Source: a bacterium (lineage in GTDB: Bacteria > SM23-31 > JAUVVT01). Taken from it: 5,083 nucleotides of DNA. The stretch covers positions 1 through 5,083 of the forward strand of contig JAUWXV010000266.1 in assembly GCA_030616165.1 (NCBI GenBank), read 5' to 3'. The notes under the pieces are model-generated. The model worked only from the letters and a program-made list of their open reading frames with translations, was not told the origin of the DNA and made no database searches. How positions within the stretch are numbered: the stretch's first letter is position 1; each line of letters begins with the position of its first letter. A program made the translations under genes and the position numbers. This document shows, in pieces, positions 1,954 through 4,957 of this stretch.

Positions 1954-2457
1954 ATGATAATAAAAGGGAAAGTCTGGAAATACGGAGATAATATTAATAC
2001 GGATATTATTTATCCGGGTAAATATACATATATGAGATATTCGCCTGAAGAGATGGCGGAGCATGCCCTTGAGGGGCTTGACCCGAAATTTGCAAGTAAT
2101 GTCCGAAAGGGCGATGTCATAGCGGCAGGTAAAAACTTCGGATGCGGCAGTTCAAGGGAACAGGCTGTTCAATGTTTAAAGTATGCCGGTGTTGAAGCGG
2201 TTATCGGAAAGTCGTTTGCCCGAATATTTTTCAGGAATGCTGTTAACAATGGGCTTCTGGTTATAGAATCACAAGAAGCAGCGGAAAATTTGTTAAATGG
2301 TGAAGAGATTTCCATAGATACAGAACAGGGAGTGATAAAAACTAACAATAAAGTTTTTAAGTTCACCTCTCTGCCCGAGTTTTTTGCTGAAATCATTAAA
2401 TGTGGAGGTATAATTCCTTATACACAGAAGAGACTTAAGACAGGAAATGAATTGTAA
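1954..2457 (+). CDS. leuD: LeuD-like 3-isopropylmalate/homoaconitate dehydratase small subunit
   Basis: This 167-residue protein is the swivel-domain subunit of a two-subunit aconitase-superfamily hydro-lyase. With a large [4Fe-4S] subunit (LeuC type), it would isomerise 2-isopropylmalate to 3-isopropylmalate or act on a related tricarboxylate. The family features are N-terminal G-K-V-W-K-Y-G-D-N-I-N-T-D-I-I-Y-P (residues 5-21), G-K-N-F-G-C-G-S-S-R-E-Q (59-70) with substrate-binding S-S-R, and S-F-A-R-I-F-F-R-N (87-95). The length fits the short archaeal-type LeuD/DmdB/homoaconitase group, not the ~200-residue proteobacterial LeuD. The specificity loop after the N-terminal strand reads Y-T-Y-M-R-Y (24-29), unlike the Y-L-x-x loops I recall for both IPM isomerase and homoaconitase, so leucine biosynthesis is not certain. 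GGGGA at 1940-1944 is a modest ribosome site. No large-subunit gene is adjacent. A dehydrogenase for the following reaction type is 612 bp downstream. Confidence 0.9.
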   Translation: MIIKGKVWKYGDNINTDIIYPGKYTYMRYSPEEMAEHALEGLDPKFASNVRKGDVIAAGKNFGCGSSREQAVQCLKYAGVEAVIGKSFARIFFRNAVNNGLLVIESQEAAENLLNGEEISIDTEQGVIKTNNKVFKFTSLPEFFAEIIKCGGIIPYTQKRLKTGNEL

Positions 2458-2492
2458 TTTTGATAAAATTTTGTAAATCCCCCGATTATTAC

Positions 2493-2526
2493 GGTCAGAC
2501 CCCAAGGCAAGCAAGAATGTCTGACC
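2493..2526. repeat. Inverted repeat after the dehydratase gene
   Basis: GGTCAGAC (2493-2500) is the exact complement of GTCTGACC (2519-2526), with an 18-nt loop. The right side, AATGTCTGACCTAC, closely resembles AATGTCTGTCCTAC in the 24-bp repeat at 5015-5038, so this is probably a diverged member of the same dispersed family. No T tract follows directly, so a terminator role is unproven. Confidence 0.45.
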
Positions 2527-2724
2527 TACTATTGATATAAGTGTTTCATAACAAATATATGATTATATACTTTTAAAAAAGTGGAAGTAACGAAGTTAAA
2601 GTAGAATATTTTTTAAAATAAAAATTAACCAAAGTTTTTTTTAAACCAGGATTATTCATAAATTTTACATTTTTAGTGAATAACCTGTATCCATATATAC
2701 ATATAAGTGTATTTGATTTTGTTA

Positions 2725-2811
2725 TGTCAGGCGAAGGCGAGACATCCCGTATTTTGAGATTTCTCGACTCCGCCTCCCCCGCTGACGGGGAGGACTCCGC
2801 TCGAAATGACA
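2725..2811. repeat. GC-rich intergenic repeat with internal hairpin
   Basis: This block is clearly richer in G/C than its AT-rich flanks. It is bounded by TGTCA (2725-2729) and TGACA (2807-2811). Inside, CCTCCCC (2773-2779) pairs with GGGGAGG (2787-2793), and the motif GACTCCGC is partly repeated on the two sides. It looks like a member of the widespread GAGATTTCTCGACT...GCTCGAAATGACA repeat type, here with an insertion at its centre. Between this block and the repeat at 2909, a small inverted repeat, GTGTTG/CAACAC (2884-2897), is also present. No gene is supported anywhere in 2458-3069. Confidence 0.5.
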
Positions 2812-2908
2812 GGTGAGTGTGAGAGCCCGCAGTTGCAGGGGGATTTAGGTCGTCCGCTGAAAGTGGATCCAAATGACACGGAGGTGTTGTGCAACACTCA
2901 CGAAAGAG

Positions 2909-3045
2909 GGAATCCAGTAATATTTAGGGGCTGAACAATGTATGGATTCCCGCTTTCGCGGGAATGACAAGGTGGGGGCGGGAATGACAGTTCTTGAAAA
3001 ATATTTTTAAATATTTTTGAAAAAGTATTTTCGTGAAACCCTATT
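2909..3045 (+). repeat. ~140-bp dispersed repeat, copy 2, upstream of dehydrogenase gene
   Basis: This is the same repeat, in the same orientation, as 214-355. Its central hairpin is changed but still pairs: ATTCCCGC (2946-2953) with GCGGGAAT (2958-2965), loop TTTC. Changes on both sides of the stem relative to copy 1 keep the pairing, which suggests that the structure matters or that the two copies were drawn from different subfamilies. It ends 24 nt before the ATG at 3070, close to the 18 nt seen for copy 1. It carries the same TTGAAA...TATTAT pair with 19-nt spacing. Confidence 0.8.
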
Positions 3046-3047
3046 AT
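3017..3047 (+). promoter_or_regulatory. Weak candidate promoter at the 3' end of repeat copy 2
   Basis: TTGAAA (3017-3022) and TATTAT (3042-3047) could serve as -35 and -10 boxes, with a long spacing of 19 nt. Transcription would start about 15 nt before the ATG at 3070. The leader has no convincing Shine-Dalgarno sequence beyond GAG at 3062-3064. The matching arrangement at 326-356 is the main reason to mention it. Confidence 0.27.
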
Positions 3048-3069
3048 TTTAAATAAGATTTGAGATAAA

Positions 3070-4083
3070 ATGGCGAAGTATAAAATTTCTCTTCTCCCTG
3101 GAGATGGTATTGGAAGGGATGTAATGGATGCTGCGGAGATAATTCTTGATGGGATTTCACTTGATGCTGAATACAAAGCCGGAGATATTGGGTGGGAATT
3201 CTGGAAAAATGAGGGGAATCCTCTTCCTGAAAGGACATTGGAGATGCTCAAAGGTTGTGATTGTGCCCTTTTTGGTGCAATTACTTCAAAGCCAAAAGAG
3301 GAAGCCGAAAAAGAATTAAATATAAACCTTGAGAATAAGGGATATATTTATACCAGTCCGATAGTAAAACTGCGGAAAGAATTTGACCTTTACGCTAACG
3401 TTAGACCATGCAAATCGTTTCCCGCCAACCCGCTTAATTACAGGGATGATATAGATATTGTAATATTCCGAGAAAATACAGAGGATTTATACAGCGGAGT
3501 TGAATTCTATCCACTTCCTGAAGAGGTAATGCAAGTTCTATTGAAGTATAATGCGAATATGAGAAAATATTCAGATGTAGCACTTGATGAAATTGCACTT
3601 TCGTGCCGAATTCTGACTAAAAACGGATGCAGGAGAATAATAAAGTCAGCCTTTGAATATGCAGAGAAAAATGGGTATAAATCGGTTACCGTAGTTGAAA
3701 AACCTAATGTAATCAGAGAAACAAGCGGTATGATGATTCGAGAAGCCAGAGATATCGCAAGTAATTATCCCGAGATTGAACACTGGGAAACAAACGTCGA
3801 TGCGATGGCAATGTGGCTTGTAAAAAATCCTCAGAATTACAGTGTAATTGCAACTTCCAATATGTTCGGGGATATAATTTCAGACCTATGTGCCCAACTG
3901 GTTGGAGGACTTGGCTTTGCATCAAGCGGTAATATAGGCGATAAGTTTGCCGTTTTTGAGCCGACTCATGGGTCAGCACCAAAGTATGCCGGTCAATATA
4001 AGGTCAATCCAATTGCAATGATACTTTCGGTTAAACTTATGCTCGAATACCTCAGTGAAAATTCTATGTCAGAAATATTGTAA
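3070..4083 (+). CDS. Isocitrate/isopropylmalate dehydrogenase family protein, C-terminus cut by TAA
   Basis: This is a beta-decarboxylating dehydrogenase that oxidises a 2-hydroxy acid and releases CO2, using a divalent metal. The 337 residues include L-P-G-D-G-I-G (9-15), the substrate-arginine segment L-R-K-E-F-D-L-Y-A-N-V-R-P (101-113), R-E-N-T-E-D-L-Y (134-141, catalytic Tyr141), catalytic Lys211, and metal-binding Asp244, Asp268 and Asp272. Residues S-P-I before the first Arg (96-98) match my recollection of archaeal homoisocitrate dehydrogenase AksF, not the S-x-N of true isocitrate dehydrogenase. In contrast, H-G-S-A-P-K-Y-A-G-Q-Y-K-V (300-312) carries Lys305, Tyr306 and Val312, the equivalents of the NADP-binding Lys344, Tyr345 and Val351 of E. 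coli Icd. The substrate is therefore uncertain: isopropylmalate, methylmalate, homoisocitrate or isocitrate. The frame stops at TAA 4081-4083, before the conserved C-terminal segment, which is present just downstream in the same frame. Family membership is certain; functional state is not. Confidence 0.9.
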   Translation: MAKYKISLLPGDGIGRDVMDAAEIILDGISLDAEYKAGDIGWEFWKNEGNPLPERTLEMLKGCDCALFGAITSKPKEEAEKELNINLENKGYIYTSPIVKLRKEFDLYANVRPCKSFPANPLNYRDDIDIVIFRENTEDLYSGVEFYPLPEEVMQVLLKYNANMRKYSDVALDEIALSCRILTKNGCRRIIKSAFEYAEKNGYKSVTVVEKPNVIRETSGMMIREARDIASNYPEIEHWETNVDAMAMWLVKNPQNYSVIATSNMFGDIISDLCAQLVGGLGFASSGNIGDKFAVFEPTHGSAPKYAGQYKVNPIAMILSVKLMLEYLSENSMSEIL

Positions 4084-4188
4084 AAGGAAGTTGTTAATGT
4101 TATTAAAGAGTGGAAGGTTAAAACTTATGACCTGGGAGGAAATAGTTCTACAATTGAAGTTGCCAAGGAGATAAGTTACTTTCTTTGA
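4081..4188 (+). pseudogene. In-frame C-terminal remainder of the dehydrogenase behind a TAA stop
   Basis: Reading on from the TAA in the same frame gives 34 sense codons before TGA at 4186-4188. They encode V-I-K-E-W-K-V-K-T-Y-D-L-G-G-N-S-S-T and then E-V-A-K-E-I. This is the normal C-terminal segment of the family (compare T-P-D-L-G-G in AksF and T-Y-D-F in E. coli Icd), with no insertion or deletion needed. The full reading would be 372 codons counting the TAA, a usual family length. The Tyr at 4126-4128 aligns with E. coli Tyr391, which helps bind the NADP 2'-phosphate. One base change (for example from AAA, GAA or CAA) explains the stop. A recent nonsense mutation or a sequencing error is likelier than readthrough, because TAA is also the normal stop of the other three genes here. 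Confidence 0.85.
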
Positions 4189-4297: not shown

Positions 4298-4340
4298 TTG
4301 AAGAATAGTAGAATACTTAAAGGTATAAAATAAAGGAGGA
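4298..4340 (+). promoter_or_regulatory. Possible promoter and strong ribosome site for membrane-protein gene
   Basis: AAAGGAGGA at 4332-4340 is a near-perfect Shine-Dalgarno sequence, the best in the window. The first canonical start in the long frame, ATG 4427, is 86 nt further on and too far to use it. Eight nt after it lies ATT 4349, then ATT 4352, both in frame with the membrane protein. TTGAAG (4298-4303) and TATAAA (4324-4329) might be promoter boxes, but their 20-nt spacing is poor and the -10 box would place the transcript start at or inside the Shine-Dalgarno region, so the promoter part is weak. The ribosome site itself is convincing. Confidence 0.5.
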
Positions 4341-4348
4341 GACTAAAG

Positions 4349-4426
4349 ATTATTGAGCAAATTCTCAAGGAATTAAAAGAACACAGTCCATTCACTATTT
4401 TTGGTGCTGTTACGGGGATAATTATT
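4349..4426 (+). other. Probable N-terminal extension of the membrane protein, from an ATT start
   Basis: The frame of the membrane protein is open upstream of ATG 4427 back to TAA 4331-4333. From ATT 4349 it reads I-I-E-Q-I-L-K-E-L-K-E-H-S-P-F-T-I-F-G-A and on into V-T-G-I-I-I before the Met of 4427. The sequence is a charged amphipathic N-terminus followed by the first half of a membrane segment that ATG 4427 would cut in two. With the Shine-Dalgarno sequence 8 nt upstream, ATT 4349 or ATT 4352 is the likely start. ATT is a rare but real initiator (E. coli infC). The alternative is that an original ATG was mutated or misread. No ATG, GTG or TTG lies in frame here. Confidence 0.65.
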
Positions 4427-4957
4427 ATGCTGATTTTTTACAATGTCCCCAATGAGATTGCTTATAATATTTTTTATATTCTACATCCAGGTCATGTTGT
4501 TTTAAGTGCCATTGTTACAGCATCCATGTATAAATTATACAGCCACAAATCTAAATTGTGGAGTATAATTATGGTTGGCTATGTTGGCTCAATTGGCATA
4601 GCCACGTTAAGTGATTCAATAATTCCTTATTTTGGGGAAGTTCTCCTTAATCTTCCAAATAGAGAAATTCATTTAGGTTTTATTGAAGAATGGTGGTTAG
4701 TAAATCCTCTGGCTTTATTGGGTATTGCAATTGCTTATTTTAGACCGGAAACTAAATTTCCACATGCCGGACATGTTTTATTAAGTACATGGGCATCTTT
4801 GTTTCATATCATTATAGCCCTGGGAGAAACAATAAACTGGATTTTAATTATTGCAACATTTGTATTTTTGTTCTTAGCAGTCTGGATACCCTGCTGTGCA
4901 AGTGATATTATATTTCCTCTGTTGTTTGTTAAGAAAAGAACGGAAGGGGAAATTTAA
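4427..4957 (+). CDS. Polytopic membrane protein with duplicated HxGH motifs, function unknown
   Basis: I cannot assign a function. From the first ATG the protein has 176 residues; I think translation begins at 4349 or 4352, giving about 202 (numbering below uses 4349). It is strongly hydrophobic, with about six membrane segments near 14-31, 37-64, 71-97, 115-131, 138-159 and 163-194. H-P-G-H-V-V-L-S (46-53) and S-D-S-I-I-P (88-93) recur as H-A-G-H-V-L-L-S (139-146) and S-D-I-I-F-P (185-190), so two three-segment halves look like an ancient duplication. Other notable residues are paired Trp after two Glu (113-116) and Cys-Cys (182-183). Paired His in membrane segments could bind metal or haem, which is inference only. 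There is no signal peptide with a cleavage site. The preceding gene is separated by two hairpins, so it is probably transcribed alone. I recall similar uncharacterised proteins from other uncultured bacteria but cannot name a family. Confidence 0.8.
   Translation: MLIFYNVPNEIAYNIFYILHPGHVVLSAIVTASMYKLYSHKSKLWSIIMVGYVGSIGIATLSDSIIPYFGEVLLNLPNREIHLGFIEEWWLVNPLALLGIAIAYFRPETKFPHAGHVLLSTWASLFHIIIALGETINWILIIATFVFLFLAVWIPCCASDIIFPLLFVKKRTEGEI

Follow-up and report, generated by a model that had tools for sequence, protein, structure and literature searches.

A conserved dehydrogenase gene interrupted by an in-frame TAA: a probable young nonsense pseudogene

Bacterial nonsense pseudogenes are recognized by a stop codon that is missing from their orthologues and by homologous sequence that continues behind it, and both were found in a gene of the isocitrate/isopropylmalate dehydrogenase superfamily. 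The gene lies in the window analyzed here, a contig of 5,083 nucleotides (G000:C5) that was taken whole from a bacterial draft genome of 3.74 Mb (G000; 343 contigs, 90% complete). Its frame is cut by a TAA in front of a homologous C-terminal tail (Table 1). We regard the gene as a probable young nonsense pseudogene on which selection is relaxed and, as such, as most likely an ordinary one that involves no new mode of decoding. In the next paragraphs we focus on the interrupted frame, on its orthologue in a related genome and on the background of interrupted genes in both drafts, and the competing explanations are weighed along the way.

Table 1. Features of the window around the interrupted dehydrogenase gene.
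Feature	Position	Strand	Basis
LeuD-type small subunit, former operon partner	1954..2457	+	TIGR02087 196 bits, above cut-off; adjoins dehydrogenase in G001
Partly repetitive non-coding spacer, LeuD to dehydrogenase	2458..3069		612 nt; 28 nt in G001
Dehydrogenase body (PF00180), 337 codons	3070..4080	+	PF00180 E 1.2e-81; 80% identity to G001:C443
In-frame TAA	4081..4083	+	Glu in 68/91 aligned rows; GAG in G001
Homologous C-terminal tail, 34 codons + TGA	4084..4188	+	AksF2 end matched alone; gap-free alignment
Conserved membrane protein 3' of dehydrogenase, likewise in G001	4349..4957	+	80% nucleotide identity, G001 C443:8558-9173

The interrupted frame and its homologues

One and the same frame runs from ATG 3070 to the TAA, continues through KEVVNVIKEWKVKTYDLGGNSSTIEVAKEISYFL and closes at TGA 4186-4188, and the peptide TYDLGGNSSTIEVAK is part of the tail encoded behind the stop. 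A reading of this DNA from the sequence alone (hereafter the sequence-only reading) had described a same-frame continuation of 34 codons at 4081-4188 and a gap-free homology of this tail to the C-terminus of the family; the former is confirmed by the sequence and its translation, and the latter by profile matches and alignments. By itself, the 34-residue tail aligns with the C-terminal end of NCBIfam AksF2 (profile positions 298-327 of 333, E 7e-6), and the PF00180 match spans the stop (profile 1-347 of 348, flagged '1 TAA'); the resemblance is therefore not due to chance. Furthermore, relatives align across the TAA without gaps.

The short form of 337 residues reaches 275 bits in PF00180, for which the gathering cut-off is 27, and is thus a member of the superfamily. 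With the stop read through, membership extends along the whole domain: homology to the isocitrate, homoisocitrate and isopropylmalate dehydrogenases (PF00180; AksF2_Meth, LEU3_arch; structures 6ltf, 3asj) is full-length, the AksF2 score rises from 313 to 354 bits, and the motifs HGSAPKYAG and TYDLGG are both found. The read-through protein misses the curated cut-offs of AksF2 homoisocitrate dehydrogenase (354 of 540 bits) and LEU3_arch (329 of 409.8 bits). It differs from the solved relatives 6ltf and 3asj by extra residues around 143-172, and from PF00180 dehydrogenases in general by its stop at residue 337. No literature on this particular gene was found.

Related genomes and a GTDB genome scan supplied 96 genes for the comparison with homologues; about 90 are distinct. 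All extend well beyond the site of the TAA. Only two have fewer than 368 residues, one with 361 and one, cut by a contig end, with 353. In the alignment suggested by the sequence-only reading, a sense codon stands opposite the TAA, encoding mostly Glu and in 6 of the 91 rows Asp. Close homologues that likewise end at residue 337 without the tail, named beforehand as the finding that would contradict an interruption, do not occur among the roughly 90, and a naturally short subfamily was rejected, as it has no member in this set. The only other in-frame stop was found in the copy of G001.

The orthologue in G001 and the broken operon

G001, itself a draft, is the sole genome of the same family that was compared. 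Its dehydrogenase gene on contig C443 has a TAG at codon 273, inside the conserved SDLCAQLVGG, GAG at codon 338 and an intact tail. The two stops are therefore independent, and a shared ancestral stop is ruled out. Accordingly, the proposed course of events would start from an ancestor with GAA or GAG at codon 338, in which this Glu codon would have changed to TAA in the window's lineage after the split from G001. If chance alone interrupts about 3% of genes, the probability of a second interruption in the orthologue is only about 3%, and stops in both copies may be taken as a hint, rather than as proof, of gene-specific relaxed selection. Given the separate stop in its G001 orthologue, the dehydrogenase gene seems to be under relaxed selection within this bacterial family, in which it might be becoming dispensable.

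On C443 the gene belongs to an apparent operon LeuC-LeuD-dehydrogenase-membrane protein. The operon around the window copy is broken up: parts of the long spacer upstream are repeated within the window and on other G000 contigs, and the LeuC counterpart of G000 lies on contig C261 beside LipA, as in G001, but is followed by a different gene.

These observations bear on the possibility that the real gene is intact and that the contig, which stems from a metagenome assembly, has received the TAA through a consensus or assembly error. The contig is a short one in a draft of 343, the dehydrogenase body is well conserved, and the in-frame stops in roughly 3% of scanned matches of both drafts could likewise stem from a modest error rate; however, a separate error in the same gene of the sister draft would be needed, and the operon rearrangement and several unusual residues near the stop go beyond a single base error. 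The stop in G001, the broken operon and the diverged flank of the stop (see below) thus favor gene decay over an isolated sequencing error, the main rival, which we regard as unlikely. From the origins that the sequence-only reading had listed, a recent nonsense mutation emerges as the best account, sequencing error is less favored, and programmed readthrough finds no support.

Divergence around the stop

The earlier statement that any further damage is absent is not quite right. Residues 325-351, which flank the stop, score lower against the family profile than the same segment in any other of the 92 rows (0.82; the next is 1.57). In 325-371, the window copy accounts for 13 changes with respect to the family and the G001 copy for 5; in the body the numbers are 25 and 33. 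This excess near the stop is of borderline significance (Fisher p 0.03 one-sided, 0.057 two-sided). As the end of the protein is less conserved family-wide, this signal of divergence is modest. Between the window copy and that of G001, dN amounts to 0.25 in the tail and 0.12 in the body, with saturation at synonymous sites, and dN/dS of the body is 0.078. Only 2 of 106 conserved columns outside the C-terminal segment deviate in the window copy. Given this conservation of the body, decay, if real, would be very recent, and the emerging picture is that of a gene which may have been under selection over most of the branch and released recently. The window gene resembles bacterial nonsense pseudogenes in its single in-frame stop, the homology continuing in frame, the disrupted operon and the different stop of its G001 orthologue; as a pseudogene it would stand out in being very young, with divergence confined to the vicinity of the stop and the rest conserved.

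Predicted effect on the protein

The structure predicted for the read-through protein with Glu at 338 (mean pLDDT 86, pTM 0.86) places the stop within the penultimate helix, which spans residues 331-347. Translation would end at residue 337, and the product would keep half of this helix but neither the TYDLGG loop nor the last helix (361-371). The sequence-only reading had assigned a last helix and a strand to the lost segment; the helix is indeed lost, and no strand is predicted there. The tyrosine of the TYDLGG motif is presumably the equivalent of Tyr391 in E. coli Icd. The 337-residue product is probably unstable or inactive, and a loss of dehydrogenase function appears likely.

Alternatively, the lineage could have trimmed the C-terminus of a short protein that still functions, the tail being a remnant. 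Strong purifying selection on the body and free divergence around 325-351 with intact catalytic motifs agree with this, but T352, Y353, D354, G356 and G357 are near-invariant across the family, all of the roughly 90 homologues keep the tail, the stop cuts a predicted helix in its middle, and the G001 gene is cut much earlier. Such a trimmed enzyme therefore seems quite improbable to us.

Interrupted genes in both drafts and the question of recoding

In-frame stops were counted in four domain families in both genomes. Among domain matches, G000 has none in 47 of Gfo/Idh and 33 of ABC type, 2 in 28 of sulfatases and 1 in 3 of Iso_dh; the respective counts in G001 are 1/36, 0/21, 1/32 and 1/2. 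In each draft, about 3% of the scanned matches are thus interrupted, a background that remains attributable to young pseudogenes, errors or both. A raised nonsense rate in this family was not detected with the sulfatases: 3 are interrupted here and a single one in a set of 12 other genomes, a difference that is not significant (p 0.14, based on approximate gene totals).

The four other interrupted genes make use of all three stop codons; one also shifts frame and another has two stops. These are two sulfatase genes in which a single in-frame stop is followed by conserved sequence (L211, G000:C54:3600-5800; L213, G001:C113:1-2200), a sulfatase whose halves lie in different frames, apparently by a frameshift (L212, G000:C24:14000-15900), and a Gfo/Idh-type gene whose frame is conserved apart from two in-frame stops (L214, G001:C167:8800-10700). 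As judged by eye from flanking motifs, their stops appear to replace Trp-like, Leu-like and His- or Tyr-like residues; those of the two dehydrogenases replace Glu and Leu.

Since the residues replaced appear to differ, a reassignment of TAA is rejected; suppression was likewise discarded, as no suppressor tRNA was found among those of G000 and most of those of G001. All 39 tRNA genes of the 90% complete G000 draft read sense codons (ARAGORN), and most of the G001 tRNAs, checked in the same way, include none either. In a large screen of the genetic codes used by bacteria and archaea, the known changes of stop codons are listed as reassignments of UGA (PMC8629427).

That the enzyme is complete, through readthrough of the stop or through re-initiation that yields the tail as a separate piece, is a notion in line with the intact TYDLGG motif, with an AAGGAAG after the stop that resembles a ribosome-binding site, and with the interruption of the otherwise open G001 gene. 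In addition to the tRNA inventory, the replaced residues and the restriction of known reassignments in that screen to UGA, it is opposed by the differing codons and places of the two stops, the lack of stops in most scanned genes and the lack of an in-frame ATG, GTG or TTG at the start of the tail, and we hold it to be very improbable. Equally hard to credit is the broader idea that this family tolerates in-frame stops via leaky termination or two assembling fragments, with a functional dehydrogenase whose stop differs between relatives.

Possible causes and consequences of relaxed selection

If the gene is the young pseudogene proposed here, a plausible cause of relaxed selection would be a second IDH-like enzyme in both genomes, together with a separate leucine set in G000. 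Besides a second LeuC/LeuD pair that scores above the curated cut-offs for leucine, G000 encodes a LeuB above its own cut-off. Contig C93 carries a third family member with an S-x-N motif, which we take to be typical of isocitrate dehydrogenases, and G001 has a counterpart; none was identified in four other class members, whose drafts are incomplete. Replacement of the dehydrogenase by the C93 enzyme would, hypothetically, explain the relaxed selection. The neighbors of the dehydrogenase do not settle its substrate: in the class member G004 a relative shares its locus with aconitase, citrate synthase and succinyl-CoA ligase subunits, and about 20 of 80 loci place the gene near LeuC/LeuD relatives.

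For annotation, we recommend labeling the 337-residue protein that is called at this locus as the product of a probable pseudogene; the dehydrogenase should not be counted as certainly present in pathway reconstructions.

Further observations on the window and its relatives

The window contains a pair of repeats, 209-380 and 2904-3071, which are 80-88% alike and have relatives on other contigs of G000. Both copies end near start codons, those of a Gfo/Idh gene (374) and of the dehydrogenase (3070). In the LeuC beside LipA, within the last 1.7 kb of G000:C261, NPGCGACLG stands in place of NPGCGPCLG in G001.

Profile searches returned no family match for the membrane protein. Its frame has no in-frame ATG, GTG or TTG near 4349, and the listed ATG 4427 sits 26 codons into the conserved stretch. 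The alignment to G001 begins at an ATT ATT pair just after AGGAGGAG (4334-4341), and translation of this frame possibly starts at AUU.
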